Shown piece by piece: positions 1,053 to 19,897 of a stretch of DNA of 34,620 nt; the stretch's first letter is position 1, and every line of letters starts with the position of its first letter. The notes beneath the pieces were generated by a model that was not told where the DNA came from, ran no database searches, and was given only the letters and a program-made list of their open reading frames with translations. Position numbers and translations under genes: made by a program. Source of the stretch: Deltaproteobacteria bacterium (lineage in GTDB: Bacteria; Desulfobacterota; Desulfovibrionia; Desulfovibrionales; Desulfovibrionaceae); assembly GCA_009929215.1 (NCBI GenBank), contig SAAX01000026.1:1-34620 (forward strand), given 5' to 3'.

Positions 1053-1334
1053 ATGCGCAATCCTCAATTTTTTTGCTTTCATTATGCGCCATTGACGTCT
1101 AAAGCAAGAACATCTGCCACATTGGGCAGAGTTAATCTTGACGCAACAACACAAATTGATAACCATACGGTATCAACAATCATCCTGGGCAAAACCGCAG
1201 CAATCACATAACCGGTCTGGCTCTTCAACCTTGTTGCGCAGGTACGCCGTTGTTTTTCGGCCAAAATGGCGCGGCATCTGGCAGCGTCTGCATGTCTTTG
1301 GGTGATTCCGACAATTTGCTCCACTGGAGAAACC
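1053..1334. promoter_or_regulatory. Divergent HAD/glpA intergenic region with inverted repeat
   Basis: 282 bases separate the two divergent starts. The clearest element is an inverted repeat, TTGATA (1156-1161), nine-base spacer, TATCAA (1171-1176). It has the size and symmetry of a dimeric repressor operator and sits between the two genes, about 160 bases before glpA. I see no confident -35/-10 pair. Which regulator binds is unknown. Confidence 0.4.
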
Positions 1335-2942: not shown

Positions 2943-4215
2943 CGTATTGGTGGTCGGCTCTGGTCTGGCGGGTCTTGTGGCTGCGCTGACCGCAGCCGAA
3001 CAGGGCCGCAGCGTGCGGCTGCTTACAACGGGCATGGGTTCGCTGGCCATCAGCGGCGGCTCGGTGGATTTTCTTGGCTATGCAGACAGCAGGCTGGCCT
3101 CAGACCCGTGGCAAAGCCTGGCCCTGCTGCCAGAAGACCACCCCTACCGCCTGTTGGGTGTAGAAAGCGTGCGCTCTGCCTTTCAGTTTTTTTCAGACAC
3201 CATGGAAAAACAGCACTGGCCCATGCGGCCCGCCCTTGCCCAGGATGGCATGCCGCGCAACACCCAGTTGCCCACCATCATGGGCACGCTCAAACCCACC
3301 TATCTGCTACCCGCCAGCCTGAATACACAGGCCATGGCCAGTGCCAAAAAGGTGCTGGTGCTCAGCGTGCACGGCCTGCGTGACTGCCAGCCCACCCTGG
3401 TGGTGAGCCAGCTCAAGCGTTACAAAAGTTGGGCCGACAGGGAATTTACCCAGGGGCTTATGCCCTCGCCCTTTGGCGAAACACACCGCGCCATCACCGC
3501 GCTTGATCTTGCCCGCCTTGCGGACAAGCCGCAGAGCCGCCAGTGGCTGCTCGACGCGCTGGCCCCGTATGCTGGCAAGTATGATCTTATCCTTATGCCG
3601 CCGCTGTGCGGCAGCAAGGCCAACCCCGAAGTGTGGCAAGCTGTGAACGCTGCCGCCGGTTGCCCGGTGGTTGAAATGCTGTCCATTCCTCCGGGGGTGG
3701 GCGGTCTGCGCCTGCGCGATGCCCTGTTGAATGCCCTGCACAAGCTCGATTTTGAACTGGTGGAAAACACCACGGTTCTGCGTGCCGAAACCACAGACAA
3801 AACCTGCACAGCCGTGCTGGCCGAGGCATCGGGCCAGCAACGCAGCCACGCTGCCCGCGCCTTTGTAACGGCCACGGGCGGCATACTTGGCGGCGGCATG
3901 GTGCTTGAACCCGGCCAGTGCTGGGATTCTGTGTTTGGCATCGACATTGCTGTTCCGCAGGACGTAACCCTGTGGTCTGAGCCAAAGATTTTTGGCAACC
4001 ACCTTTTTTCACGCATGGGTGTGCGCGTTGACCGCGAAATGCGGCCCGTGGATGCAGCAGCTGCCGTGCGCTGGCAAAACGTGTTTTTTGCCGGGCGCAG
4101 CCTTGGCGGCTACGATTACGCAACAGAAAAAAGCGGTCATGGCGTTGCCATTGCCACGGGCTGGCAGGCGGGCCGCATGGCCGCCGCAGCCGCCGCTGCC
4201 GGGGAAAAACAATGA
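2926..4215 (+). CDS. glpB: Anaerobic glycerol-3-phosphate dehydrogenase subunit B
   Basis: Encodes 429 residues, the usual GlpB size. The N-terminus has a dinucleotide-binding motif, VLVVGSGLAGLVAAL (G11-x-G13-xx-G16), and the C-terminus a second flavin-contact motif, FFAGRSLGGYDYATEKSG. GlpB is the flavoprotein subunit that partners GlpA and connects it to the Fe-S subunit GlpC. The start at 2926 is preceded by GGAG at 2916-2919; upstream in-frame ATGs lie deep inside glpA and are not needed. The stop overlaps the glpC start (ATGA), a sign of tight coupling in glpABC. Confidence 0.95.
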   Translation: MSRIVDVLVVGSGLAGLVAALTAAEQGRSVRLLTTGMGSLAISGGSVDFLGYADSRLASDPWQSLALLPEDHPYRLLGVESVRSAFQFFSDTMEKQHWPMRPALAQDGMPRNTQLPTIMGTLKPTYLLPASLNTQAMASAKKVLVLSVHGLRDCQPTLVVSQLKRYKSWADREFTQGLMPSPFGETHRAITALDLARLADKPQSRQWLLDALAPYAGKYDLILMPPLCGSKANPEVWQAVNAAAGCPVVEMLSIPPGVGGLRLRDALLNALHKLDFELVENTTVLRAETTDKTCTAVLAEASGQQRSHAARAFVTATGGILGGGMVLEPGQCWDSVFGIDIAVPQDVTLWSEPKIFGNHLFSRMGVRVDREMRPVDAAAAVRWQNVFFAGRSLGGYDYATEKSGHGVAIATGWQAGRMAAAAAAAGEKQ

Positions 4216-5423
4216 GCGTGCGCATTAATCCAGACAAGTGTATAGCCTGCACCACCTGCGTGGTGCACTGCCCCGTGGCAGAGGCCACGCCCAAGTTTCT
4301 GGGCCCGCGCATGATTGGCCCTGCCTATGAGCGTTTTCGTCTGCTGGGCCTTACGGAAGATCCCTCGCTGCACTATTGCGCCAACTGCAAAAACTGCGAC
4401 ATCTCCTGCCCGCATGGTGTGCCTGTTTCAAGCCTCAACATGATGGCAAGGGCCGACCAGTTCAAAAAACACTCGCCCGGTCTGCGCGACTGGGTGCTTG
4501 GGCACGGCGAGCTCATGGCCAAATGGCTGCGGCTTATCCCCGCTGCCATCAAAAACTTTGGCATGCTCAACCCGGTAACGCGGGCCGTGCTGGATGCCCT
4601 GGGCATCGACAAACGCGCGCCCCTGCCCGCCTTTGCGCCGCAGACCTTCCGCCAGCTCATGCAGCATGTGCACCAGCCAGACCTCAAGCGCAGCGTGGTG
4701 TTTTACCCCGGCTGCTATGTGGACGTGTATGACCCCCGCACCGGCCTTGATATGGTGTGGGCCATGAACCGCGCTGGCTACAAGGTTATTGTGCCCGAAG
4801 AACTGGTGTGCTGCGGCCTGCCAATGGTTGCCAACGGCTTTTGGCAGCACGCCCGCTCCAATGCAGAGCATAACCTCAAGGCCCTTGGTCAGTGGCGCGA
4901 TGCCGGTCTGCCCGTGGTTACGGGCTGCCCCAGCTGCGCCCTCATGTTCCGCGTTGATCTGCCGGAATACTTCCCCGATCTGGCAGAAAAATACGGCGCG
5001 TGCCGACTGGCCGATGCGCAGGAGTTTCTGCTGGATGCCGTGGACAGCGGCGACCTCTCGGTCAAGGCAGACGGCAAGCCGACAAACCTGCCAGACCTCA
5101 AGCTCATCTACCACGCGCCCTGCCACCTGCGTGCCCAGGGCAACGGCCTGCCGGGGCTTGAACTGCTGCGCCGCCTCGATGGCGTAACTGTGGAAAATGC
5201 CGATGCCGGTTGCTGCGGTATTTCTGGCAGCTACGGCTTTAAAAAGGAAAAGTACGATATCGCCCAGACCGTGGGCTCGGAGCTGTTTGACAAGATTCGC
5301 AAAAGCGGCGCTCAGGCGGCTGTTTCTGAATGCGGAACCTGCCGCGTGCAGATCACGCACGGCTCTGGCAAGTTCAGCCTGCATCCGGTGAGCATCCTGC
5401 GCCAACGGCTTGAAGCGCGTTAG
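4212..5423 (+). CDS. glpC: Anaerobic glycerol-3-phosphate dehydrogenase subunit C (Fe-S, membrane anchor)
   Basis: Encodes 403 residues. Two ferredoxin-like 4Fe-4S motifs open the protein: C10-C13-C16-C20 (CIACTTCVVHCP) and C56-C59-C62-C66 (CANCKNCDISCP). Two cysteine-rich CCG domains follow, with YPGCYVDVYDP...VCCGLPM and HAPCHLRAQG...AGCCGISGSYG, the layout of GlpC and related heterodisulfide-reductase-like subunits. It passes electrons from GlpAB to quinone at the inner membrane. The start overlaps the glpB stop by four bases. A strong hairpin at 5459-5488 closes the operon. No glycerol kinase, facilitator or glpR gene is in the window. Confidence 0.95.
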   Translation: MSVRINPDKCIACTTCVVHCPVAEATPKFLGPRMIGPAYERFRLLGLTEDPSLHYCANCKNCDISCPHGVPVSSLNMMARADQFKKHSPGLRDWVLGHGELMAKWLRLIPAAIKNFGMLNPVTRAVLDALGIDKRAPLPAFAPQTFRQLMQHVHQPDLKRSVVFYPGCYVDVYDPRTGLDMVWAMNRAGYKVIVPEELVCCGLPMVANGFWQHARSNAEHNLKALGQWRDAGLPVVTGCPSCALMFRVDLPEYFPDLAEKYGACRLADAQEFLLDAVDSGDLSVKADGKPTNLPDLKLIYHAPCHLRAQGNGLPGLELLRRLDGVTVENADAGCCGISGSYGFKKEKYDIAQTVGSELFDKIRKSGAQAAVSECGTCRVQITHGSGKFSLHPVSILRQRLEAR

Positions 5424-6428: not shown

Positions 6429-8071
<1,643 letters not shown>

Positions 8072-8098: not shown

Positions 8099-8422
8099 AT
8101 GCAGATGATTCGCACGATTATTCGGCCTGAAAAAACCACCGAAGTTCTCTCCGAGCTGCTGGCAGCGGGCTTTCCCGCCGTTACCAAGCTTGATGTGGTG
8201 GGCCGTGGCAAGCAGAAAGGCATCATGGTGGGCGACATTCAGTACGACGAAATTCCCAAGCAGATGCTCATGCTAGTGGTCAGCGACGAAGACAAGGACG
8301 ACGCCATCCGCGTTATCCTGCGCGTGGCCAAGACAGGCGACGGTCACTTTGGCGATGGCAGAATCTTTGTTTCAAGCGTTACCGAGGCCTGGACCATCAG
8401 CAGCGGCAAGTCTGGCCTGTAG
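8099..8422 (+). CDS. nifI1: NifI1, PII-like nitrogenase regulator
   Basis: Encodes 107 residues of the PII (GlnB) fold. The beginning, MIRTIIRPEKTTEVLSELL, and GFPAVTKLDVVGRGKQKG lead to a T-loop, and the DGHFGDGRIFVSSVTEAW C-terminus is typical of PII. The location directly between nifH and nifD and pairing with nifI2 identify it as NifI1. Known NifI1/NifI2 complexes bind the MoFe protein and inhibit it after ammonium addition; 2-oxoglutarate and ATP relieve this. GGAG at 8088-8091 supports the ATG at 8099. The gene lies 27 bases after nifH. Confidence 0.95.
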   Translation: MQMIRTIIRPEKTTEVLSELLAAGFPAVTKLDVVGRGKQKGIMVGDIQYDEIPKQMLMLVVSDEDKDDAIRVILRVAKTGDGHFGDGRIFVSSVTEAWTISSGKSGL

Positions 8423-8431
8423 GAGGCTCCC

Positions 8432-8809
8432 ATGCAGGAAATAGTTGCAATGGTTCGAGCCAACATGGTGGCAGCAACCAAAAATGCCCTGTCCAAGGCC
8501 GGATGCCCCTCATTCTCGTGCAGCAAGTGCCTGGGGCGTGGCAAAAAGGGTATGGATCCCGCCACCCTGCGCATGGTTATGGAAAGCGGCGAGCTGCCGC
8601 GCACCCCCGCAGGCGAATCGCTTACAGAAGTGGGCAGGCTGATTCCCAAGCGGTTGTTCAATATCTGCGTTCCCGATGAAAAGGTCGAAGCTGTGGTCAA
8701 GGCTATCATAGAGGCCAACAGCACAGGCCACCCCGGCGATGGAAAGATATTTGTGATGCCGGTGGAAGAATCCTATGTGGTTCGCACGGGCGAGCGCGCT
8801 GACGCATAA
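8432..8809 (+). CDS. nifI2: NifI2, PII-like nitrogenase regulator
   Basis: Encodes 125 residues, longer than NifI1 as usual, because of an extended T-loop region (about residues 40-70, with two cysteines in SFSCSKCLGRG). The C-terminal GHPGDGKIFVMPVEESYVVRTGE is the PII strand-helix end. It partners NifI1 in direct ammonium switch-off of nitrogenase, a system known from methanogens and anaerobic bacteria. AGGAGG overlaps the nifI1 stop, so the two are coupled. This post-translational control fits the lack of draTG here. Confidence 0.95.
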   Translation: MQEIVAMVRANMVAATKNALSKAGCPSFSCSKCLGRGKKGMDPATLRMVMESGELPRTPAGESLTEVGRLIPKRLFNICVPDEKVEAVVKAIIEANSTGHPGDGKIFVMPVEESYVVRTGERADA

Positions 8810-8820
8810 GGAAGGTATGT

Positions 8821-10410
8821 ATGAGTATTGACGCCAACGCAGTAGTGCTTGAGCGCTACAACGCCAAGGTCTTCAAGAACCGCAAGGAGCACATGCTCAA
8901 GGTGAACCCTGCGGAAGACCAGATGATCATCGCCAACACGCGTGCCATTCCCGGCATCATGACCAACCGGGGCTGCTGTTACGCTGGCTGCAAGGGCGTT
9001 GTGCTCGGCCCCATCAAGGATATTGTGCTGATCACCCACGGCCCTGTTGGCTGCGGCTTCTACAGCTGGGGCACGCGCCGCAACAAGGCCAAGGCCGAGG
9101 GTGATACACCCAACTACATTCAGTACTGCTTTTCCACTGACATGCAGGAGCCCGATATCGTCTTTGGCGGCACCAAAAAGCTCAAGAAGGCCATCGACGA
9201 AATCATGGAGCTCATGCACCCCAAGACCATCATGATTGCCGCCACCTGCCCCGTGGGTCTGATCGGTGACGACATTCAGGCCGTGGCCGCAGAAGCTGAA
9301 AAAGAATACGGCATCAGCTGCGTGGCATACAGCTGTGAAGGGTACAAGGGCGTGAGCCAGTCGGCAGGTCACCACATTGCCAACAACGGCCTCATGAAGC
9401 GCGTTATCGGCACGGGCGATTACGAACCCGCCTCCAAGTATTCGATCAACATTCTTGGCGAATACAACATCGGTGGTGACGGCTGGGAACAGGAACGCAT
9501 CCTTAAAAAAATCGGCTACGATGTGGTTTCGGTCTTTACCGGCGACGGAGAAGTGGAACGCATAGCCAGCTCGCACAAGGCCAATCTCAACCTCGTGCAG
9601 TGCCACCGCTCCATCAACTACATCGCCGAAATGATGAAGACCAAGTACGGCGTAGACTGGCTCAAGGTCAACTTTATCGGTCTGGAAGGTACGATTCAGA
9701 GCCTGCGCGACATGGCTGCCTACTTTGGCGACCCCGAGCTTGCGCAGCGCACCGAACAGGTTATCGCCGAAGAGCTGGCCGAGGTGCAGGATCAGATGGC
9801 GGCCTACAAAGCCCGCCTCAACGGCAAAACCGCAGCCCTCTTTGTGGGCGGCAGCCGCTCGCACCACTATCAGGGCCTGCTGCAAGACCTGGGCATCAAG
9901 ACAGTGCTGGCCGGGTACGAATTTGGCCACCGCGACGACTACGAAGGCCGGGAGATCATCCCCAACATCAAGGACGACGCGGACAGCAAGAATATCGAAC
10001 ACATCACGGTGGAAAAGGACGAAAAGAAGTACCACGCCTACCTTACCCAGGAACAGTACGACAAGCTGGCCGCAGAGATTCCGCTTGAAAAGTACGATGG
10101 CATGATACGCGACATGGACGAGGGAACCTATGTGGTTGACGACCTCAACATGTACGAAGCTGAAAAGTTTATGGAAATCCTCAAGCCCGACATGTTTTTC
10201 TCTGGCATCAAGGACAAGTACGCGTTGCAAAAGGCCGGAACCCTCTCGCGCCAGTTGCACAGCTACGATTACAGCGGGCCTTACGCGGGTTTCAAGGGCG
10301 CAACGCAGTTCGGTTACGACCTCTGCATGGGGTACTTTACCCCCGCGTGGCACATGGTAACCCCGCCCTGGAAGAACCGCGCCACCCTGCAAGGAACTGT
10401 GGGAGAATAG
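8821..10410 (+). CDS. nifD: Nitrogenase molybdenum-iron protein alpha chain
   Basis: Encodes 529 residues, longer than the ~490 of Azotobacter NifD. The excess maps to about residues 375-440, where anaerobe-type NifD proteins have an insertion. P-cluster cysteines are C53 or C52 (GCCYAGCKGVV), C78 (GPVGCGFYSW) and C143 (ATCPVGLIGDD). The FeMo-cofactor ligands are C261 (VQCHRSINY) and H480 (QLHSYDYSGPY). Q180 and H184 in VSQSAGHHIANN match the residues near the cofactor and homocitrate. Together with NifK it forms the alpha2beta2 protein that reduces N2. The ribosome site GGAAGG is just before the ATG, and nifK begins one base after the stop. Confidence 0.98.
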   Translation: MSIDANAVVLERYNAKVFKNRKEHMLKVNPAEDQMIIANTRAIPGIMTNRGCCYAGCKGVVLGPIKDIVLITHGPVGCGFYSWGTRRNKAKAEGDTPNYIQYCFSTDMQEPDIVFGGTKKLKKAIDEIMELMHPKTIMIAATCPVGLIGDDIQAVAAEAEKEYGISCVAYSCEGYKGVSQSAGHHIANNGLMKRVIGTGDYEPASKYSINILGEYNIGGDGWEQERILKKIGYDVVSVFTGDGEVERIASSHKANLNLVQCHRSINYIAEMMKTKYGVDWLKVNFIGLEGTIQSLRDMAAYFGDPELAQRTEQVIAEELAEVQDQMAAYKARLNGKTAALFVGGSRSHHYQGLLQDLGIKTVLAGYEFGHRDDYEGREIIPNIKDDADSKNIEHITVEKDEKKYHAYLTQEQYDKLAAEIPLEKYDGMIRDMDEGTYVVDDLNMYEAEKFMEILKPDMFFSGIKDKYALQKAGTLSRQLHSYDYSGPYAGFKGATQFGYDLCMGYFTPAWHMVTPPWKNRATLQGTVGE

Positions 10411-10411
10411 T

Positions 10412-11776
10412 ATGCTTGACCTCACCCCAAAGACACATGTGAACAGATCGGGCGTTCTTATCAACCCGTGCAAGACCTGTCAGCCAGTGGGTGCGCTGTT
10501 TGCCGCTCTGGGCGTGCGCAACTGCATGCCTTACAGCCACGGATCGCAGGGTTGCGCTTCTTACCACCGCACCTACCTTACGCGTCACTTCAAGGAACCC
10601 GCCATCGCTGTCACCAGTTCCTTTACCGAAGGCGCGTGCGTGTTCGGCGGCGGCCCCAACATCCGCCAGGGCGTCAAGACGGCCTTTGAAGTCTATAACC
10701 CGGACATCATTGCCGTGCACACCACCTGTCTTTCCGAAACCATCGGCGATGACCTCAAGACCTACATCGACGACATGGAAATTCCGGACGACAAGATCGT
10801 GGTGCACTGCAACACGCCGAGCTACGTTGGCTCGCACGTTACGGGCTTTGCCAACATGATGGCCGGCTTCATCAAATATCTTACCACCAAGGGCAAGACC
10901 ACCGAAACCGTGGCCGTGTTCCCCGGCTTTGTGAACCCCGGCGACATCCGCGAATACAAGCATCTTGTGAACCTGATGAAGCTCAAGTCCATCATGTTCC
11001 CCGATTGCAGCAATGTCATGGATGCCCCCATGACCGGCGAATACAAGATGTACCCCGATGGCGGCACAACGGTTGAAGAAATCCGCGCGCTCGGCAGCTG
11101 CCGCAAGGTTCTGGCTCTTGGCCGACTGACCAGCGAGGAACCCGCCGCCCAGCTCAAGCGCAAGTGCGGTGTGGATTTTGACCTGCTGCCCCTGCCCATC
11201 GGTCTGGCCGATACGGACGCCTTTATCATGGCCATGGCAAACCTCAACGGCGGCGAAGTTGACCCGCTTATCGAAGAAGAACGCGGCCGTCTGCTCGACC
11301 TTATGCTCGACGCAAACCCGTACTTCTACGGCAAAAAGGTTGCCGTGTACGGCGACCCCGACACAGTGCTTGGCATGACCCGCTTCTGCCTGGAACTGGG
11401 CATGATTCCCAAGTATGTGCTCACGGGTACGCCCGGCGAAACCTTCGTCAAGCTGGCCAAGGCCATGTTCAAGGAATACGGCAAGGAAGAAGAATGCAGG
11501 GCCTTTGCGGCCAAGGATCTCTTTGACCTGCACCAGTTTATAAAGGAAGAACCCGTGGATCTGCTGCTCGGCAACTCGCACGGCAAGCAGATCGCCAAGG
11601 CTGAGGGCATTCCGCTGGTACGCGCTGGCTTCCCGGTTCTTGACCGCTACGGACACGCCTCGCTGCCCATGGTTGGTTACCGTGGTGCCTTCCAGTTGGC
11701 CACCAAGATCGCCGACACGCTTATGGAAGAGTTTGACCGCAACTGCGCCGACGAAGACATGGATCTGATCATGTAA
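10412..11776 (+). CDS. nifK: Nitrogenase molybdenum-iron protein beta chain
   Basis: Encodes 454 residues. This is the short NifK form lacking the ~50-residue N-terminal extension of Azotobacter NifK, as in clostridial and archaeal enzymes. P-cluster cysteines are C23 (CQPVGALFAALG), C48 (HGSQGCASYHRT) and C106 (HTTCLSETIGDD). The SSFTEGACVFGG segment corresponds to the beta-Ser188 region. It pairs with NifD and holds half of the P-cluster. It starts one base after the nifD stop, with GGGAGAA as ribosome site inside the nifD end, so 1:1 production is favoured. A hairpin follows before nifE. Confidence 0.98.
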   Translation: MLDLTPKTHVNRSGVLINPCKTCQPVGALFAALGVRNCMPYSHGSQGCASYHRTYLTRHFKEPAIAVTSSFTEGACVFGGGPNIRQGVKTAFEVYNPDIIAVHTTCLSETIGDDLKTYIDDMEIPDDKIVVHCNTPSYVGSHVTGFANMMAGFIKYLTTKGKTTETVAVFPGFVNPGDIREYKHLVNLMKLKSIMFPDCSNVMDAPMTGEYKMYPDGGTTVEEIRALGSCRKVLALGRLTSEEPAAQLKRKCGVDFDLLPLPIGLADTDAFIMAMANLNGGEVDPLIEEERGRLLDLMLDANPYFYGKKVAVYGDPDTVLGMTRFCLELGMIPKYVLTGTPGETFVKLAKAMFKEYGKEEECRAFAAKDLFDLHQFIKEEPVDLLLGNSHGKQIAKAEGIPLVRAGFPVLDRYGHASLPMVGYRGAFQLATKIADTLMEEFDRNCADEDMDLIM

Positions 11777-11795: not shown

Positions 11796-11826
11796 AAGGG
11801 CCGGGGGGCATTGGCTCCCCGCCCTT
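11796..11826 (+). other. Intercistronic hairpin between nifK and nifE
   Basis: AAGGGC-c-GGGG pairs with CCCC-GCCCTT (11796-11806 with 11817-11826) with one bulged base. It ends a few bases before the GGGGG ribosome site of nifE (~11830-11835). It could stabilise the upstream nifHDK message, pause transcription, or limit nifE translation. There is no U-run, so it is unlikely to be a full terminator. Confidence 0.55.
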
Positions 11827-11840
11827 CCAAGGGGGTTCCC

Positions 11841-13268
11841 ATGGCTATGGAAATACTTGAAGAACGCCGTACGTCCATCAAGGAAAAGGGAAACAAGGGC
11901 GGGGGCTGCTGTAGCGGCGACGGCCTGCGTTGCGATACGGCCAGCGTGGCCGGTTCCGTGAGCCAGCGGGCCTGCGTGTACTGCGGTGCGCGCGTGGTGT
12001 TAAACCCCATTACCGATGCCTTTCATATCGTGCACGGCCCCATCGGCTGCGCCAGCTACACCTGGGATATTCGCGGCAGCCTTACCAGCGGGTCGGAACT
12101 GTTCCGCAACAGTTTTTCCACCGACTTGCAGGAAAAGGACATTGTTTTTGGCGGTGCAGAAAAGCTCACCCGCGCAATTGACGAGGCCGTGGCCAACTAT
12201 GCGCCCAAGCTCATTTTTGTCTACGCCACCTGCATTGTGGGCGTGATTGGCGACGATGTGGAAGCCGTGTGCCGCAATGCGGAAAAAAAGCACGGTATCC
12301 GCGTGATCGCGGTCAAGGCTCCGGGTTTTTCGGGCACAAAGTCCACGGGCTACCGCATGGCCTGCAATGCTCTGGTGCAGCTTATGGAGCCGCACAAGGA
12401 ACAGCCCAAGATCAAGGGCGTCAACATTCTGGGCGACTACAACCTTGCGGGCGAAATGTGGATTATCCGCAACTACCTGCGCGAAATGGGCATTCCCATT
12501 GTTGCCACCCTTACGGGCGACGCTGCCTACGAAACGCTCATCAAGGCCCCGGCTGCCCAGCTCAACATTGTGCAGTGCGCCGGCTCCATGATGTATCTGG
12601 CCCACCGCATGGAAGACGAAATGGGCGTTCCCTGGATGCGTGCCAGCTTCTTTGGGGTGGAGGACACCTCCACAGCTCTACGGCAGGTGGCCGAACGCCT
12701 CAACGACGACTACGCCAAGCGCAAGGCCGAGGCCCTTATTGCCGAGCGCGGCACCAAGGCCGAAGCGTTTCTTGAACAGTACAAGCCGCACTTTGTGGGC
12801 AAAAAGGCCGCCATCTTTGTGGGCGGCGGCTTCAAGGCCATATCGCTCATCCGGCAGTTTAACGAAATGGGCATCGAAACCGTGGTGGTAGGAACCCAGA
12901 CCGGCAAGCCTGAAGATTATGAAATCATTTCAAGCCTCGTTAACCCCGGCACGGTCATTCTTGACGATGCCAACCCCGCGGAGCTTGAAACCTTCATGAA
13001 GCAGAAAGGCGCGGATATTCTGGTGGGCGGCGTCAAGGAACGCCCCCTGGCCTACAAGCTGGGCATTGCCTTTTGCGACCACAACCACGAGCGCAAGCAC
13101 GCCCTGGGCGGCTTTGAAGGCGTGGAGAACTTCACCCGCGAGGTGAACCTTTCGATCAACAGCCCTGTGTGGCAGTTTACGCGCAGCTCTGCCTCATTTG
13201 CCGAGGCAACACAGGCGCAGGCCAATCTGGTGCGCCAAGCACTGGCCACAAGAGCAGCACATTTCTAG
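11841..13268 (+). CDS. nifE: FeMo-cofactor biosynthesis scaffold protein NifE
   Basis: Encodes 475 residues of the NifD/NifE family. Conserved cysteines C45 (ACVYCGARVV), C70 (HGPIGCASYTWD) and one in YATCIVGVIGDD hold the P-cluster-like Fe-S cluster of the NifEN scaffold. A cofactor-region cysteine lies in VQCAGSMMYLAHRM. An extra cysteine-rich N-terminal stretch, GGGCCSGDGLRC (20-31), is unusual. NifE and NifN form the platform where NifB-co becomes FeMo-co. The ATG at 11841 has a strong G-rich ribosome site; a second ATG two codons later is possible. It is less tightly coupled to nifK (64-base gap with hairpin). Confidence 0.95.
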   Translation: MAMEILEERRTSIKEKGNKGGGCCSGDGLRCDTASVAGSVSQRACVYCGARVVLNPITDAFHIVHGPIGCASYTWDIRGSLTSGSELFRNSFSTDLQEKDIVFGGAEKLTRAIDEAVANYAPKLIFVYATCIVGVIGDDVEAVCRNAEKKHGIRVIAVKAPGFSGTKSTGYRMACNALVQLMEPHKEQPKIKGVNILGDYNLAGEMWIIRNYLREMGIPIVATLTGDAAYETLIKAPAAQLNIVQCAGSMMYLAHRMEDEMGVPWMRASFFGVEDTSTALRQVAERLNDDYAKRKAEALIAERGTKAEAFLEQYKPHFVGKKAAIFVGGGFKAISLIRQFNEMGIETVVVGTQTGKPEDYEIISSLVNPGTVILDDANPAELETFMKQKGADILVGGVKERPLAYKLGIAFCDHNHERKHALGGFEGVENFTREVNLSINSPVWQFTRSSASFAEATQAQANLVRQALATRAAHF

Positions 13269-13341: not shown

Positions 13342-16050
13342 ATGAGCGCCAATCTTGTCAACCTGAATACAAATCCCTGCAAGATGTGCATGCCCTTGGG
13401 TTCGGTAAGCGCCTTTTACGGCATCAGCAAGAGCATGAGCATTCTGCACGGTTCGCAGGGATGCAGCACCTATATTCGGCGGCACATGGCAACCCACTAC
13501 AATGAGCCGGTAGACATCGCCTCGTCTTCACTTACGGAAGAGGGCACGGTATTCGGCGGCACCAAGAACCTACTCAAGGGGCTTGAAAACCTCATCAAGC
13601 TGTACAACCCCGAGGTGATCGGCGTTTCCACCACCTGCCTTGCCGAAACCATCGGCGAGGATGTGCCCGCCATCATCAAGCAGTTCAAGGACGAACACCC
13701 GGAAGTGACGGCCACCATCATTCCCGTGTCTTCTCCCGGATACGGCGGCTCGCAGTACGAGGGTTTTTTCCGCGCCTTGCACGCCATTGTGCGCCACGTG
13801 CCCATGAATGCCGCGCCCAATAACGTGGTCAACATCATCACCGGCCACCTGTCTGCAGCGGATTCCAGAGCCCTCAAGGCACTGCTCGACGGCTGCGGCC
13901 TTGACTATGTGCTGCTGCCCGATCTTTCGCAAAATCTCGACGGCGGGCATGAGGACGACTACAATCGGTTGCCGCAGTACGGCACAACGCTTGCCCGCGT
14001 TGGCCTTATGGCTGGCGCGCGCATGACCCTTGAGCTTGCGCCCTTCTGCCCCGAAGAATATTCTCCCGGCGCGTACCTGCGCGAAACTTACGGCGTGCCG
14101 CTTTTGCGCATGAATCTGCCCGTGGGCCTGCGCGATACCGATGCCTTTGTGGCCACGCTTGAGGCCCTTGGCGGCCAGATACCGGCCACCGTGCGCGAAG
14201 AACGCGCCCGCTACCTCGACGCCATGATCGACGCGCACAAATACAACGCGCAGTGCCGCGTGGCCGTTTACGGCGAGCCCGACATGGTGCTGGCGCTTGT
14301 GCGCGCCTCGTGCGAAAACGGAGCTGTGCCCGTGGTGGCCGCCACCGGCAGCCGTTGCGCCAGTTTTGAAAAAACCCTTGCGCCCGACATGGCCAAGGCC
14401 ACGGAAACCCAGTTCAGCGGTGATTTTGACATTCTGAACTTTGCCGACTTTACCGCCATTGAAAACGCCCTGCTTGCGCGCAAGGCCAACCTCATGCTGG
14501 GCAATTCGGACGGCCGCCGCATTGAGGAACGCCACCACGTTCCGCTGCTGCGCTACGGCTTTCCCATCCACGACAGGGTGGGCGGCCAGCGCACGCGCCT
14601 GCTGTTCTATGACGGCTCGCTCAGCCTCATGGAAGCCACGGCCAACGCCATGTTGCAGTTTACCGAGAGCAGCTTCCGCGAGGAGCTTCTTAACAAATAC
14701 TTCAAGGATGATGCCTTCATGGAAGCCGAAGCCTCTCGCATAGAAGTTGTGGCCCCCGCCAAGAAGCCGCTTGTGCCTGTAACTGCCGCTGCCGCCCCTG
14801 CGGCCAGCGATCTGGCCGCCATAAGTGCAGAGCGCACCAAGTCCCACCCCTGTTTCAGCTGTGGGGCCTGTGCCACCTCGGCGCGGCTGCATCTGCCCAT
14901 CGCGCCCAAGTGCAACCTGAGCTGCAACTACTGCCTGCGCAAGTACGACTGCGTTAACGAAAGCCGCCCCGGTGTCACCACCGCCGTGCTTACGCCCGCT
15001 CAGGCCTTTGACCACTTCATGAAAGTAAAGCACGACATGCCCAATCTTACGGTTGTGGGCATCGCTGGCCCCGGCGACACGCTGGCCAACCCGGAGGAAA
15101 CCTTCCGCACGCTCGAGATGATCCGCAAGGAAGATCCCAATATCACCTTCTGCATGTCCACCAACGGTCTGGCCCTGCCGGAATATGTGGAAGACATGAA
15201 GCGCGTGGGCGTGAGCCACGCCACCGTGACCATCAACGCCGTTGACCCCGCCATTGGCGCGCAGATTTACAAGTTTGCCATGTATCGGGGCAAGAAATAC
15301 ACGGGCGAAACCGCAGCCGCCCTGCTGCTGGCCAACCAGATGGCGGGCCTGCGCGCCCTGAGCCAGGCGGGCATAGTGAGCAAGGTCAACACCGTGCTGC
15401 TCAAGGGCATCAACGACGGGCACATCCCGCAGGTGGTGGAAACCGCGCGCGAGCTTGGCGCGGTGATGACCAACATCATGCAGCTCATCCCGGTCAAGGG
15501 CAGCGTTTTTGAAAACATGCCCCTGGTGAGCAACAAGGAGCTTATGGACATGCGCCGCAGTTGCGAGCCCACGCTCAAGCAGATGTACCACTGCAAGCAG
15601 TGCCGCGCCGATGCCGTGGGCCTGCTGGGCGACGACAAGTCCATTGAATACCGCCCGGCCGTGGCCGAAAAGGCCCCCGCAGCGGAAGAAGCCAAGCCCG
15701 CTGTGGCCCGCAAGATACGCATTGCCGTGGCCTCCAAGACCGGCATGACCGTTGACCAGCACTTTGGTCAGGCAGAACAGTTCTATATCTACGAGAGTGA
15801 CGGCGCAGCCGCCAGCTATGTGGAAACGCGCAGTGTTTCCCGATACTGCAACGGCATGGACGACTGCGGTGAAAAGACCGGGCGCATGGCGGGCATTCTG
15901 GCCGCTGTGGACGACTGCAAGGGCGTGCTGGCCCTGCGCATAGGCGAAAGCCCGCTGAAAAAGCTTGAGACCAAGGGCATACGCGTGTTCACCCTTTACG
16001 AAAATGTGGACAAGGCCGTGAATGACGCCGCCAGGGCGCTCTGCGGGTAA
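13342..16050 (+). CDS. nifN-B: NifN-NifB-NifX-like triple fusion, FeMo-cofactor assembly
   Basis: Encodes 902 residues in three parts. Residues 1 to ~460 are NifN, the NifE partner, with C13, C16 and C41 (NPCKMCMPLGS; HGSQGCSTYIRR). An Ala/Pro-rich linker covers ~470-495. Residues ~500-770 are the radical-SAM enzyme NifB: a leading C504-C507-C510 set, the CxxxCxxC motif C524-C528-C531 (CNLSCNYC), the GIAGPGDTLANP SAM-region motif and a late C751/C754 pair (CKQC). Residues ~788-902 form a NifX/NafY-like cofactor-carrier domain. NifB makes the carbide-containing Fe-S core (NifB-co), which NifEN receives. N-B fusions are known in clostridia. AGGAG precedes the ATG. Confidence 0.95.
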   Translation: MSANLVNLNTNPCKMCMPLGSVSAFYGISKSMSILHGSQGCSTYIRRHMATHYNEPVDIASSSLTEEGTVFGGTKNLLKGLENLIKLYNPEVIGVSTTCLAETIGEDVPAIIKQFKDEHPEVTATIIPVSSPGYGGSQYEGFFRALHAIVRHVPMNAAPNNVVNIITGHLSAADSRALKALLDGCGLDYVLLPDLSQNLDGGHEDDYNRLPQYGTTLARVGLMAGARMTLELAPFCPEEYSPGAYLRETYGVPLLRMNLPVGLRDTDAFVATLEALGGQIPATVREERARYLDAMIDAHKYNAQCRVAVYGEPDMVLALVRASCENGAVPVVAATGSRCASFEKTLAPDMAKATETQFSGDFDILNFADFTAIENALLARKANLMLGNSDGRRIEERHHVPLLRYGFPIHDRVGGQRTRLLFYDGSLSLMEATANAMLQFTESSFREELLNKYFKDDAFMEAEASRIEVVAPAKKPLVPVTAAAAPAASDLAAISAERTKSHPCFSCGACATSARLHLPIAPKCNLSCNYCLRKYDCVNESRPGVTTAVLTPAQAFDHFMKVKHDMPNLTVVGIAGPGDTLANPEETFRTLEMIRKEDPNITFCMSTNGLALPEYVEDMKRVGVSHATVTINAVDPAIGAQIYKFAMYRGKKYTGETAAALLLANQMAGLRALSQAGIVSKVNTVLLKGINDGHIPQVVETARELGAVMTNIMQLIPVKGSVFENMPLVSNKELMDMRRSCEPTLKQMYHCKQCRADAVGLLGDDKSIEYRPAVAEKAPAAEEAKPAVARKIRIAVASKTGMTVDQHFGQAEQFYIYESDGAAASYVETRSVSRYCNGMDDCGEKTGRMAGILAAVDDCKGVLALRIGESPLKKLETKGIRVFTLYENVDKAVNDAARALCG

Positions 16051-16054
16051 TTCC

Positions 16055-16079
16055 GGCCCAATCCATCGGCCCAATCCAT
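16055..16079 (+). repeat. 12-bp tandem repeat in the nifN-B/nifV gap
   Basis: GGCCCAATCCAT occurs at 16055-16066 and again at 16068-16079 (period 13). It lies immediately after the nifN-B stop and before a strong hairpin. It is probably a replication-slippage duplication. Confidence 0.6.
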
Positions 16080-16080
16080 T

Positions 16081-16109
16081 GGCCTGGCCGGAGGCAAACC
16101 GGTCAGGCC
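16081..16109 (+). other. Intercistronic hairpin between nifN-B and nifV omega
   Basis: GGCCTGGCCGG (16081-16091) pairs with CCGGTCAGGCC (16099-16109) over 11 positions with one G-U pair and a 7-base loop. It lies 31 bases after nifN-B and 36 before nifV omega. With no U-run it is better read as an attenuator or RNA-stability element than as a terminator. Confidence 0.55.
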
Positions 16110-16144
16110 GTGGCACACGCCATCTTTGCCGAGAGGTTATTTCC

Positions 16145-17089
16145 ATGCCGCAACTGGTGGACAGAACGCTCTGCCTGCTCTACCGGGTGCTGCCAGCCGC
16201 GCACTCGCAAGAGCAAAGGCAGACCGCAGATGCATTTGCACTCTGGGCCGGGGAATGGATCGACCTCATGCACCACATGGGCTTTGTGGTCGAAATTCCC
16301 CCAGACCTGCAATTTGAAGCAGCCAGCGCCAAGGCCCGCCGCACGGGCAAGCGTCCGGCTCCTTACGGGCCGTGGTCGCGCCTGAGCGGCTGCTGCGATG
16401 CTCTTTATAGTTTTGAAACCGAGCTCTGGCCCCGATTTGCCACCATCAAGGATACGGTGGAATTCTGTCCCGGCGACCACGCGGGCTGCGCCACGGCTTT
16501 GGCCGTGCTGTGGCTGCTCAAGGGCGGCCCCCGCGTGGCGGGCTGTATTGGTGGCTCTGCCCTGCACGGCCCCGATGCTGGCCCCGCGCTGGAAGAAGTA
16601 GCCCTGAGCCTGCACGCCCAGGGGCTCGAAACCGGCCTTGCAAATCTGGACAAAATGCCGCAGGCCACCGCCCTGCTTGCGCAGGTGGGGCTTGACATAT
16701 CCCAACACAAGGCCGTGCTGGGCGCGGATATCTTTGCCGTGGAATCGGGCATCCATGTGGACGGTATTGTCAAAAAGCCCTTTTTGTACGAGCCCTACCC
16801 GCCAGCCACCGTGGGGCTTGAACGTCAGATTGTGGTGGGCAAGCATTCGGGGCGTGTTTCGCTGCGCATCAAGGCCCGCCAGCTTGGTTTAAGCTTGCCC
16901 CGCGCGGAAGAAGAACCTATGCTTGAAAAGGTTCAGCAGCTTGCCGAGCACCAGCAGTGCAGCCTGACCGACGCCCAGTTTCTCGACCTGTGTCACACAT
17001 GCCATCCCCCCGAATCCCTGTCTTCTGCCCGAACAGACTGTTGCGGTCTTTCGGGTGCAACGGCTTCTGTGGAGGTGGGTCATGCCTGA
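16145..17089 (+). CDS. nifV-omega: Homocitrate synthase, omega subunit
   Basis: Encodes 314 residues. The diagnostic part is ADIFAVESGIHVDGIVKKP...YEPYPPATVGLERQ...VGKHSGR (about residues 195-245). This is the C-terminal half signature of homocitrate/isopropylmalate synthases, while the catalytic TTLRDGEQ motif is absent. It therefore corresponds to the omega polypeptide of split NifV, as described in Clostridium pasteurianum. Together with the alpha subunit it condenses acetyl-CoA and 2-oxoglutarate to homocitrate, the organic ligand of FeMo-co. GAGG at 16133-16136 supports the start; a longer in-frame start at 16022 would overlap nifN-B. The end overlaps nifV alpha by 8 bases. Confidence 0.92.
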   Translation: MPQLVDRTLCLLYRVLPAAHSQEQRQTADAFALWAGEWIDLMHHMGFVVEIPPDLQFEAASAKARRTGKRPAPYGPWSRLSGCCDALYSFETELWPRFATIKDTVEFCPGDHAGCATALAVLWLLKGGPRVAGCIGGSALHGPDAGPALEEVALSLHAQGLETGLANLDKMPQATALLAQVGLDISQHKAVLGADIFAVESGIHVDGIVKKPFLYEPYPPATVGLERQIVVGKHSGRVSLRIKARQLGLSLPRAEEEPMLEKVQQLAEHQQCSLTDAQFLDLCHTCHPPESLSSARTDCCGLSGATASVEVGHA

Positions 17090-17945
17090 GATCATCATTG
17101 TCGACACTACCCTGCGCGACGGCGAACAGGCCCCCGGTTTTGCCTTTGCCCCTGCCCTTAAAATCCGCCTGGCGTCCATGATGGACGAGGCGGGCGTGGA
17201 CCAGATTGAGGCGGGTGTTCCCGCCATGGGCGAAAACGAAAAGGCCACCATCCGCTCCATCCGCGAAGCATGCGCAAACGCCCGCGTTTCTACCTGGAAC
17301 CGCCTGCGCGAAAGCGACGTGCGCCACTCCTTTGACTGCTCTCCCCACATCATCCATCTGTGCTGTCCTGTTTCAGACCGCCAGATAAAAGACAAACTCA
17401 AAACTACCCGTACCGAGGTGCTGGCCTCGCTGGCCAAGTGCGCTGCCCTTGCCGCCAGCCGTGGTGCGGAGGTTACCGTGGGTTTTGAAGACGCCTCGCA
17501 CGCCTCGCCCGACCAGCTGAAGGAAGCGGCCCGGGCTGCCCGCCAGTGCGGCGTGGTGCGCGTGCGCCTCAGCGATACCGTGGGCTGCTACACGCCCGAC
17601 AAGGTATGGCGGGCCGTGCGCATGCTGCGCGAGGCAGGCGTGGATGTGGAAATACACGCGCACAACGACTTTGGCATGGCCGTGGCAAACTCACTCATGG
17701 CTGTCAACGCCGGGGCGCGGTACGTCAACACAACATTGTGGGGCATTGGCGAAAGGGCGGGCAACTGCGGGCTGGCTACCTTTACGGCAGCAGCCGCGCG
17801 TCTTGGCAATACAACGTGTGCGGTGAATTCACGCAAGGCCCTTGAGCTGGAACGCCTCGCGGCCACGCTGTTGCCGCAAAAGTCCATGAACGGCTGGGGC
17901 AAACATTTGGGGTATAGCTATGGCACGCGCCCTTTTGGGCTATAG
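17082..17945 (+). CDS. nifV-alpha: Homocitrate synthase, alpha subunit
   Basis: Encodes 287 residues. It opens with IIIVDTTLRDGEQAPGFAF (residues 4-22), the catalytic N-terminal motif of the DRE-TIM metallolyase family. It later has HAHNDFGMAVANSLMAVNAG, with the HxH metal ligands, and TTLWGIGERAGN. It ends soon after the TIM barrel and lacks the ESGIHVDG half, which the preceding omega gene supplies. GGAGG at 17071-17075 is the ribosome site, and the start overlaps the omega stop, matching a need for equal amounts. It is the last clear nif gene before a hairpin at 17969-17998. Confidence 0.93.
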   Translation: MPEIIIVDTTLRDGEQAPGFAFAPALKIRLASMMDEAGVDQIEAGVPAMGENEKATIRSIREACANARVSTWNRLRESDVRHSFDCSPHIIHLCCPVSDRQIKDKLKTTRTEVLASLAKCAALAASRGAEVTVGFEDASHASPDQLKEAARAARQCGVVRVRLSDTVGCYTPDKVWRAVRMLREAGVDVEIHAHNDFGMAVANSLMAVNAGARYVNTTLWGIGERAGNCGLATFTAAAARLGNTTCAVNSRKALELERLAATLLPQKSMNGWGKHLGYSYGTRPFGL

Positions 17946-17968
17946 GCACAAGCGTCTTTTGTCCTCTG

Positions 17969-17998
17969 CCTGCGTCGCGTTAGCCGTTGCGACGCAGG
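17969..17998 (+). terminator. Hairpin after nifV alpha
   Basis: CCTGCGTCGC pairs perfectly with GCGACGCAGG around a 10-base loop, 23 bases after the nifV alpha stop. No T-run follows, so it may act as an RNA 3'-end stabiliser or a partial terminator. Confidence 0.5.
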
Positions 17999-18179
17999 AA
18001 GCTACGGATAACGACAGCAGCTGGTTAAAATGAACCTGACACGTCCATTACTGTCGCTATTCGTAAGCCCGGCAGGCGGGCAACGACTAGCGCTGACTGC
18101 GCCAGTTTTTTCGGTCGAGTACTATAAGAGTACACTCCCTCAAAAACAGGCTTGTCTTCCTTGGCAGAGAACAAAATCC

Positions 18180-18241
18180 ATCTTGTGCCAAAACGTGTTT
18201 ATTATAATTACGGCAGATAGATAGATGTTATTTTAAATAAC
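18180..18241 (+). promoter_or_regulatory. Candidate promoter and palindrome before the AnfO-like gene
   Basis: A perfect TATAAT lies at 18203-18208 with only a poor -35 (ATCTTG) 17 bases before. Just after the expected start is a palindrome, GTTATTT-t-AAATAAC (18227-18241), placed where a repressor would block transcription. Both are pattern-based only. Confidence 0.35.
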
Positions 18242-18295
18242 TACATCACTCGTTGCCGCTAACACTCTGGACGCCCCCAGCTTACGGAGATCGCC

Positions 18296-18946
18296 ATGAA
18301 ATGTGACTGCATTGCAGTGCTTGAAAATACAGAAAATTCCATTACCTCAATGGATACCTGCACCCATCTTGCTGTCTGGCAGCGCGACTGGAGCACAGGC
18401 AAGGGCTGGCATGCCGCTGCATCCGTGCCTTTTTCGCTTGCAGGCTGCGACACCCTGCCCCAGATGCGCGATCACCTGCGTGAGCTTGCCCAGCTGCTGC
18501 CAGCAGAGGCCGCCATTGCCGGGGCCAGCATTTCTGGCCTTGCCTACAACGAGCTGAGCCGCATGGGCTTTTGCCTGTGCGAGCTCGATGCCTTCTCGCC
18601 CGATATTCTCGATGCCCTTGCCAGCGAAATTCTGGCTTCGGCGCAGGGCGAGGTGCAGGTTCCCACAGCCCCCACGCCCACGGGCATACCCGGCGTGTAC
18701 ACCATCAACCTTATGGAAGTGCAGGCCGCCCACCCCGATATTACGTCAAAAAAAGCCCTGCGACCCTTTTTGGCCTCCACACCCTTTGTGGAGCTGGAGA
18801 TCATTTGCGGGCACATGCCCCCCTGGTTTGAAGAACACATGCGCCAACACCACCTTACCTGCGCCCGCACACGGCAGGATGACGGAACCGTGCGCGCCCG
18901 CATTTCGCACGCGCTCTGCGGCGAAACAGCGCCCAACGGCATTTAG
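18296..18946 (+). CDS. AnfO-family nitrogenase accessory protein
   Basis: Encodes 216 residues. The N-terminal region has a PFSLAGCDTLPQMRDHLREL segment, then GASISGLAYNELSRMGFCL. The C-terminal region has NLMEVQAAHPDITSKKALRP, FVELEIICGHMPPWF and a conserved LEIIC-H-P-W-E pattern. I recognise this arrangement as the AnfO family, named from the Fe-only nitrogenase locus of Azotobacter, whose exact role is not settled. Its place 350 bases after nifV, with no anfHDGK in the window, suggests it serves the Mo enzyme or an alternative enzyme coded elsewhere. CGGAGA at 18285-18290 is the ribosome site; the stop overlaps the ribosome site of the next gene. Family assignment is from memory of motifs. 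Confidence 0.72.
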   Translation: MKCDCIAVLENTENSITSMDTCTHLAVWQRDWSTGKGWHAAASVPFSLAGCDTLPQMRDHLRELAQLLPAEAAIAGASISGLAYNELSRMGFCLCELDAFSPDILDALASEILASAQGEVQVPTAPTPTGIPGVYTINLMEVQAAHPDITSKKALRPFLASTPFVELEIICGHMPPWFEEHMRQHHLTCARTRQDDGTVRARISHALCGETAPNGI

Positions 18947-18955
18947 GAGACTGTC

Positions 18956-19897
18956 ATGAGTACCGCCCTGCAATTTGAAACGGCATTGACCCCATACGGC
19001 CCTGTAAACGATGTGCACGTGCTCACGCGCTGGCCCGGCGGCGCACCGCAGGACTGCCGCCTGCTGGAAAAAAACAGCGTGCCCACGCCACAAGGCTGGC
19101 TGGTTGCGCTCTACGACCCGGAAGACGTGCGCCGCAGCAGCGGTAAAAGCTTTAGCCTGTACCCCAACGGCATGTGGCGCAGCCTTGAGCTGCAAGGGCA
19201 GACCACGGTAAGCACCCCGCTGGGCGACATGCCCGCCGAATGGCTTGCGTGGCACGAAAAAGGCACGCTCAAGCGCATACTGCTGCGCAAGGGCAAACTG
19301 AGCGGGTACTGGACAGAACAGGACGAACGCAAGCTTGCCACAGAAATCAGCCTTGACCTCCACGGGCAAAGCGTAAACGCCAAGATTCAGGGCCTGCGCT
19401 TTTACACATCGGGCATGCTTGAAAGCGTCACATTCTGGCCTGGCGAAACCATACGTCTTGAAACTCCGCTCGGCCCCCTGCCGGTGAGGTACGGCTGTGC
19501 TTTTTACGAAAACGGCCGCCTGCGCAGCTGCGAGCCAGCACGGCCCGTGCATGTGCCCACCCCCTTGGGAGAGCTGGCGGCCTACGATTCCACGGCTTCG
19601 GCCATTTGCGGCGATATTAATTCGCTGTGCTTTGATGAAAAGGGCGCAGTTTGCGGCCTGGTTACCGCCGCATGCACCCTGCGCTGGCAGGCCAACGGCC
19701 AGCAGCAAAGCATTGCCCCGCGTATGGAAAAAGACCAGCTCACCATGCTGCGCACGGTGGTTGTGCCCCTGCGGCTGACCTTTTTGCCAGACGGTCTTGT
19801 GCAGATGGACGACGGCCAGAAGGTGCTGTTGGCCCCGGCAAAGGAAATTTCTGTTACCCCCTTTGTGGCCCTGCCAGACATGCGCCCCGGCAACTGA
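18956..19897 (+). CDS. Unrecognised beta-repeat (MORN-like) protein in the nif neighbourhood
   Basis: Encodes 313 residues, no signal peptide and no membrane segment. It is built from repeated units. TP-x-G occurs at residues 12, 44, 87, 170 and 202 (TPYG, TPQG, then TPLG three times). Aromatic-x-x-x-G-x-hydrophobic-x-(S/R) turns occur as LYPNGMWRSL, WHEKGTLKRI, FYTSGMLESV and FYENGRLRSC, with weaker FDEKGAVCGL and FLPDGLVQMD. This resembles MORN-type beta-hairpin repeats, often used as binding surfaces. TAGGAG, overlapping the stop of the AnfO-like gene, is its ribosome site (9-base gap), so the two are co-translated. I cannot name its function; a partner role for the AnfO-like protein or nitrogenase is inferred from context only. 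Confidence 0.85.
   Translation: MSTALQFETALTPYGPVNDVHVLTRWPGGAPQDCRLLEKNSVPTPQGWLVALYDPEDVRRSSGKSFSLYPNGMWRSLELQGQTTVSTPLGDMPAEWLAWHEKGTLKRILLRKGKLSGYWTEQDERKLATEISLDLHGQSVNAKIQGLRFYTSGMLESVTFWPGETIRLETPLGPLPVRYGCAFYENGRLRSCEPARPVHVPTPLGELAAYDSTASAICGDINSLCFDEKGAVCGLVTAACTLRWQANGQQQSIAPRMEKDQLTMLRTVVVPLRLTFLPDGLVQMDDGQKVLLAPAKEISVTPFVALPDMRPGN

Follow-up and report, generated by a model that had tools for sequence, protein, structure and literature searches.

The nif cluster of a 34,620-nucleotide stretch of DNA from a Desulfovibrio-like genome (the window) is followed by two genes, one coding for a homologue of AnfO and the other for a protein we call P0002. We lean, with modest confidence, to the reading that this AnfO is a nif-specific member of its family which participates in the maturation of the Mo nitrogenase as a carrier of the FeMo-cofactor for apo-NifDK, with P0002 alongside. 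More broadly, an accessory role in cofactor handling, one of the possibilities raised by the first-pass annotation of this DNA, is supported and constitutes the best reading of the pair.

The nif genes, anfO, P0002 and the sequence features listed with them lie on the forward (+) strand. The operon 5' of anfO is of the Mo type, as seen from the match of NifD to TIGR01282, the presence of NifE, the NifN-B fusion and the split NifV. It comprises nifH (7250..8071; TIGR01287, 463 bits), the PII-like nifI1 and nifI2 (8099..8809; from the gene call and their clustering with other nifI genes), nifD (8821..10410; TIGR01282, 656 bits), nifK (10412..11776; TIGR01286, 424 bits), nifE (11811..13268; TIGR01283, 608 bits), a nifN-nifB fusion with a NifX-like domain at the C-terminus (13342..16050; PF00148, Radical_SAM and PF02579) and a split homocitrate synthase, nifV-omega then nifV-alpha (16022..17945; TIGR02660 on both halves), so that the gene order reads nifH-nifI1-nifI2-nifD-nifK-nifE-nifN~B-nifVω-nifVα, then anfO, then P0002. 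Only four Oxidored_nitro proteins, NifD, NifK, NifE and NifN-B, are encoded in the entire genome (99.98% complete, 3.11 Mb); all of them lie inside the window, and there is no anf or vnf component-1 gene. Two sister genomes, G065 and G069 (100% complete, in about 20 contigs), also present AnfO and P0002 with no anfD, and the absence of anfHDGK noted from the window thus extends to the complete genome and its well-assembled sisters. Upstream of the nif cluster (1302-5423) we observed a DAO/FAD/FeS trio resembling the anaerobic glycerol-3-phosphate dehydrogenase glpABC, and after P0002 (20075-24291) genes for a CPA2-type antiporter, a CoA-binding protein, a CxxCxxCC protein and a DnaJ-domain protein, in an order kept in G041 and G051.

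The pair had been placed directly after the Mo-nitrogenase operon; it does come after a nifV of the Mo type, but the two are separated by a 350-bp gap (17946-18295) holding a strong predicted hairpin (17964..18001), a possible transcription boundary. Because of this gap and hairpin, anfO and P0002 may form their own transcription unit in the window strain. Between nifV and anfO of the sister loci, which include named Desulfovibrio among the matches of the nif-type AnfO scan described below, the distance is only -4 to 276 bp, and anfO is therefore on the nif transcript in at least some strains. The search for regulatory signals gave no Rfam match, no sigma-54 signal and no sigma-70 promoter in the nifV-alpha/anfO gap, and sigma-54 sites no more frequent than by chance in the window (28 observed versus 37 expected). 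Another strong predicted hairpin, with no clear T-tract, lies 3' of P0002 (19965..20010) and possibly ends the transcription unit.

The anfO gene (18296..18946) codes for a protein of 216 amino acids whose family, first assigned from the letters alone, was confirmed by a full-length match to PF09582 (residues 6-191, E 9e-37, 126.7 bits for a cut-off of 30.3). Against TIGR02940 the protein scores 70.2 bits (E 2e-19), under the equivalog cut-off of 129.15. A PDB sequence search with AnfO returned weak, unconvincing matches only, and the plasmid collection contained no relatives of anf-type AnfO. Three residues, His173, W177 and F158, are invariant in the 54 aligned AnfO sequences. The first of them (codon 18812..18814) is the putative equivalent of His203 of Azotobacter vinelandii AnfO, a correspondence assigned through the C-x-H motif. 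Mutagenesis of the A. vinelandii protein showed that His203 is essential while Cys159 and Cys201 are dispensable (PMC11938142), and the replacement by Phe, in four nif-linked copies, of the Cys located two residues before His173 fits these results.

Two alignment columns separate completely the nif-linked from the anf/vnf-linked AnfO: position 176, three residues after the histidine (Pro176 in the window, codon 18821..18823), is P or A in 40/40 nif-linked and K, R or H in 13/13 anf/vnf-linked copies, and position 148 is D or E in the 40 former and non-acidic in the 13 latter. The histidine, the tryptophan and an SKK motif are fully conserved in nif-linked AnfO over several phyla. Within Desulfovibrio, the nif and anf copies separate in the tree with a support of 100/100. 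The anf-linked copies fall into two clades, one of Desulfovibrio and one of Bacillota, and since the well-supported branches require at least two changes, the association of these residues with nif or anf does not come down to one single event. The Desulfovibrio anf-type proteins (L083, L091, L099) have the C-terminal sequence GQKW[FY]D-GCSCG, a Cys tail that neither the nif copies nor the anf copies of Bacillota possess.

The AlphaFold2 model of AnfO (pLDDT 92.8, pTM 0.62) presents two domains. The N-terminal domain (residues 1-116; 18296..18643) is predicted to adopt the NafY-core/NifX-like fold: with VIA-align, it superposes on the NafY core (1p90) with a Z of 10.2 and 3.5 Å over 110 residues, a likeness of fold only, and on the NifX bound to NifEN (9ian_F) with a Z of 9.9, and its best ten fold matches all belong to the NafY/NifX superfamily. 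The corresponding domain of A. vinelandii AnfO binds apo-component 1, i.e., the apo-FeFe protein (PMC11938142). A Pro-rich linker (residues 117-130; 18644..18685), delimited by a block of lower pLDDT, the low interdomain pTM and the alignment, leads to the C-terminal domain (residues 131-209; 18686..18922), which is presumed to bind the FeMo-cofactor by homology to the C-terminal domain of A. vinelandii AnfO (PMC11938142) and whose fold gave weak matches only (NUDT6 N-domain, Z 6.8; SirA-like, Z 6.2).

The distribution of both genes was followed in two censuses, one of relatives and one of Clostridia, and the statement that AnfO and P0002 occur only with nitrogenase applies to these two. In the first, which covered 121 relatives, the Desulfovibrio genomes bearing AnfO and those bearing nifD are the same 17. 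A second AnfO, next to anfD, is present in all five of these 17 that also encode anfD (more than 1000 bits to TIGR01861) and in no others. Synteny in the genus shows two arrangements, nifH-I1-I2-D-K-E-NB-V(omega)-V(alpha)-anfO(-P0002) and, at a separate locus, anfHDGK accompanied by an anfO of its own. In G011, which is 63% complete, the sole AnfO is of anf type and on a short contig, and this genome is uninformative on nif linkage. The termite-gut Desulfovibrio clade has nif-anfO and no P0002. Conversely, P0002 occurs without AnfO in G125, G257, G241 and the Desulfovibrionales genus g12, where the nine P0002-positive genomes are all nif-positive and P0002 sits away from nif, between a glucokinase gene and a gene for 83 amino acids. 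Searching the whole phylum for P0002 brought in another seven genomes, from three more genera of Desulfobacterota (g17, g18 and g110), and there too it stands alone. The stand-alone P0002s of Desulfobacterota (L084:8367-9601, L230, L231) cluster in a single clade, separate from the P0002 copies linked to AnfO, and the neighboring 83-aa gene, which matches no Pfam family, is kept in g12 and g110 (L084:9350-9601).

The Clostridia census covered 273 genomes, of which 19 have NifD/NifE. AnfO over the cut-off was found in 11 of these 19 and in none of the 254 nitrogenase-negative genomes, and the same numbers were obtained for P0002 (Fisher 6e-15 in each case, uncorrected for phylogeny); the two occur together in ten genomes. 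The eight nif-positive Clostridia lacking AnfO show that this protein is not essential to NifN-B type systems. These censuses are unbiased and carry the argument, because the wider scan, performed on 84,980 species genomes, used nif-type AnfO as its only query and its loci lean accordingly to a nif context. With this limit, the scan found 32 AnfO loci (Desulfovibrio, Bacillota, Coriobacteriales and others), 30 of which have Mo-nif neighbors (the exceptions being L116 and L124, the latter on a 4-kb contig) and none of which adjoins anf genes. Twenty of the loci come from outside Desulfovibrio (Ruminiclostridium, Pectinatus, Acetobacterium, Anaerotignum, Lachnospiraceae, Coriobacteriales, Candidatus Adiutrix and delta MAGs), and in 19 of them P0002 comes immediately after AnfO, at an intergenic distance of -32 to 66 bp; in the remaining one (L117) it is elsewhere in the same genome. 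All 21 such genomes contain nitrogenase, and in 14 of them AnfD is found nowhere. Together, these results bear out for several phyla the linkage of the pair to nitrogenase genes seen in the window, confine both genes to nitrogenase-bearing genomes in the two censuses and give good support to the earlier idea that they are not tied to the Fe-only enzyme, anfHDGK being absent from the complete window genome and its well-assembled sisters. The grouping of Coriobacteriales with Anaerotignum (L127, L122) in both the AnfO and the P0002 trees suggests that the nif-anfO-P0002 block may have moved between phyla.

The pair is also present beside the alternative systems. Of 13 anfD-bearing genomes checked, 11 have as many AnfO copies as nitrogenase systems (exceptions G123 and G128). 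P0002 and AnfO adjoin one anf operon, in G219, with the pair in reversed order (anfH-I1-I2-D-G-K-P0002-anfO), and one vnf-like cluster, in G123.

P0002 (18956..19897) has 313 amino acids, and its characterization as an all-beta, MORN_2-like, nitrogenase-associated protein comes from its AlphaFold2 model, the PF07661 matches of its family and its genetic linkage; we consider that P0002 most likely represents a nitrogenase-associated MORN_2-like family. Its ATG lies 9 bp after the AnfO stop codon, which is overlapped by a Shine-Dalgarno-like AGGAG (18945..18949) read directly in the sequence. The window protein has no significant Pfam or NCBIfam match. However, 17 of 31 members of the family, the window copy not being among them, match MORN_2 (PF07661; best 6e-9), and TPxG occurs five times in the window copy against three at most in any of 20,000 shuffles. 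The term MORN-like used by the first-pass annotation is therefore borne out by the family, and its TPxG repeats by the window copy. The model is a confident all-beta structure (pLDDT 91.6, pTM 0.85). A Foldseek comparison with the PDB yielded nothing at E < 0.001, a PDB sequence search returned nothing and no relatives were found in the plasmid collection. The top PDB entries for the model, OspA and the CPAP G-box (Z 6.9, under the trust threshold of the tool), are extended single-layer sheets, which agrees with MORN-like repeats; a specific likeness to OspA/CPAP or to an integrase domain was dropped because the structural matches are too weak. Many Bacillota P0002s (L114, L115, L121, L125, L130-L133 and others) end in CxxCxxC(xxC), a possible metal-binding tail, and we rejected it as a family-wide metal site since it is missing from the window copy and from all Desulfovibrio copies. 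The P0002 proteins of G016, G058 and G054 (L039, L038, L037) carry some 30-40 extra residues after the NSL motif, before the next strand, a feature confined to one Desulfovibrio subclade.

From its linkage and distribution we infer that P0002 may act as a scaffold or partner in maturation. A direct AnfO-P0002 complex is a guess, because the two proteins show no coevolution over and above the one each has with NifD/K/E: the distances of AnfO and P0002 follow those of NifD/K/E (r 0.83-0.85), and the correlation left between the two proteins is not significant (partial r 0.15, with 515 of 5000 permutations as high). This same result, together with the occurrence of each protein without the other, speaks for P0002 being foreign to the task of AnfO, perhaps with a structural or regulatory function and merely carried on the same transcript. 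We judge this unlikely, though it deserves serious consideration, for the two genes are found together at clusters of all three kinds (nif, anf and vnf) and in both orders, and among nif-positive Clostridia P0002 is present in 10/11 genomes with AnfO versus 1/8 without (Fisher p 0.001).

For AnfO itself, the most likely ordering of the mechanisms puts delivery of the cofactor first, with a gatekeeping function as its main rival. In the delivery scenario, the NifX/NafY-like N-terminal domain would dock on apo-NifDK, and the C-terminal domain would hold, via His173, the FeMo-cofactor arriving from NifEN. The tethered cofactor would then be passed to apo-NifDK or kept until NifDK is ready; of delivery and blocking, we presume the former. 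AnfO would in this way take the job of NafY, with the order of domains reversed, in an organism for which the search for a NafY SAM-type domain came out negative; the profile of that domain was silent in 30 genomes, but silent in control genomes too. The all-beta P0002 would accompany the cofactor step as a scaffold or partner, possibly in contact with AnfO. The C-terminal domain of A. vinelandii AnfO binds both FeMo-co and FeV-co, and its authors compare AnfO with NafY (PMC11938142). Because the cell has no FeFe protein to guard, handling of FeMo-co for apo-NifDK is the simplest function for a nif-linked AnfO. Several points stand against this scenario: the NifN-B fusion already has a NifX-like domain that could hold the cofactor, A. 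vinelandii AnfO blocks the insertion of FeMo-co into the FeFe protein, the opposite of delivery (PMC11938142), eight nif-positive Clostridia do without AnfO, the TIGR02940 score is under the equivalog cut-off, and the pairing of P0002 with AnfO is not strict.

This blocking is what the gatekeeping alternative would transpose to another client: AnfO on apo-NifDK would capture cofactor that is incorrect or incomplete (NifB-co/L-cluster, or forms lacking Mo or containing W), a function that would matter in sulfidic, Mo-poor habitats. It extends directly the mechanism demonstrated for AnfO (PMC11938142), the essential His is the same in the nif copies, and many of the hosts are sulfidic or strict anaerobes. 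Against it, the cofactor known to be captured, FeMo-co, is the right one for NifDK, so that capture would have to be reversible or discriminating, and discrimination between cofactors is considered unlikely by the AnfO authors (PMC11938142); furthermore, the strict change at position 176 suggests that the nif copies work differently. We thus hold gatekeeping to be rather unlikely, if still the strongest competitor of delivery.

The pair might instead serve general Mo homeostasis or another Mo/W cofactor, the nif linkage reflecting a shared demand for Mo. This is suggested by the stand-alone P0002 of g12 and by L116:20-11601 (Clostridia bacterium SKW158), where AnfO-P0002 lies behind genes for MoeA-PBP, a MoaA-like radical SAM protein, MoaC and a MOSC protein, preceded also by genes for a sigma-54 activator, an aldehyde ferredoxin oxidoreductase, a SPASM radical SAM protein and ThiF; this single case hints at a link of the pair to Mo handling. 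However, the L116 genome itself has NifD/NifE-like matches, on another contig. Molybdopterin enzymes are common in Clostridia, and AnfO and P0002 are each absent from all nitrogenase-negative genomes of that census, which makes the homeostasis explanation improbable. Finally, we rejected the idea that nif-linked AnfO copies are useless remnants of anf systems that have disappeared. The five Desulfovibrio genomes with both systems make a loss of anf in the genus plausible, but the idea is largely refuted and has very little probability left, as anf-bearing genomes retain a separate anf-linked AnfO, the two types differ deeply, also at fixed positions, and the nif copies remain intact beside nif, with conserved motifs, over several phyla.

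Beyond the preferred carrier function, a more general scheme, tentative and in our opinion doubtful as a whole, would make AnfO a cofactor-sorting adaptor, one per nitrogenase system, in which the residue at His+3 (P/A versus K/R/H) and the N-terminal domain set delivery (nif) or diversion (anf, vnf), and would make P0002 a new maturation family acting with AnfO on all three isoenzymes. If AnfO regularly partners the Mo enzyme, the general role of the family differs from the guarding of the Fe-only enzyme, and an unstudied cofactor-handling step would exist in the NifN-B type nitrogenase of anaerobes. Sets of genes from these anaerobes used for nitrogenase transfer might then have to include AnfO and P0002. 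The choice between delivering and diverting is directly testable through a single amino-acid swap, at the subtype residue next to the essential His, and P0002 provides a second, unnamed family to test.

Experimental papers describe AnfO as keeping FeMo- and FeV-cofactor out of the Fe-only nitrogenase and compared AnfO only from organisms having that enzyme (PMC9310841). AnfO is listed, in the same arrangement, in the nif clusters of Desulfotomaculum gibsoniae (PMC4148979) and Desulfofundulus (PMC11206085); the parts concerned are gene lists or a figure legend, and they hold no survey, subtype, partner or mechanism. For P0002 we found no paper in the open-access literature, earlier mention elsewhere being possible, and the only open-access article mentioning both nitrogenase and MORN repeat deals with biofilm genes of Fusobacterium. 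Clostridial nafA/nafB, a possible earlier name, were not found in that literature either. What is probably new here is an AnfO subtype serving the Mo nitrogenase together with an undescribed companion family, AnfO itself having been annotated in nif clusters of sulfate-reducing bacteria in the lists cited above, which leave it uninterpreted.

Compared with A. vinelandii AnfO (PF09582/TIGR02940), the window protein shares the full-length Pfam family, the two-domain build, the essential His and the neighborhood of a nitrogenase operon; it differs by its linkage to Mo-nif in a genome devoid of anfDGK, its score under the TIGR02940 equivalog cut-off (70.2 versus 129.15), the P/A instead of K/R/H at His+3 of the nif copies, their acidic position 148 and the frequent pairing of its type with P0002. 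It also lacks the GGCSCG tail of the Desulfovibrio anf-type AnfO. P0002 resembles MORN_2 (PF07661) through the profile matches of its relatives and their repeated Y-x-N/D-G-x-L-K/R turns, to which its family adds the TPxG turns, a central FPLNGK-SGYW core and, in many Bacillota, the CxxCxxC tail, along with a distribution restricted to nitrogenase in the genomes tested. With NafY/NifY, AnfO has in common a domain of NifX/NafY-core fold, a tethered second domain and the Mo-nitrogenase setting, and by analogy would bind both apo-component 1 and FeMo-co. Unlike them, it belongs to a different sequence family, has no DIMCO_N (SAM-like) domain (it matches PF09582 only), carries the NifX-like domain at its N-terminus and would bind the cofactor through the other domain.
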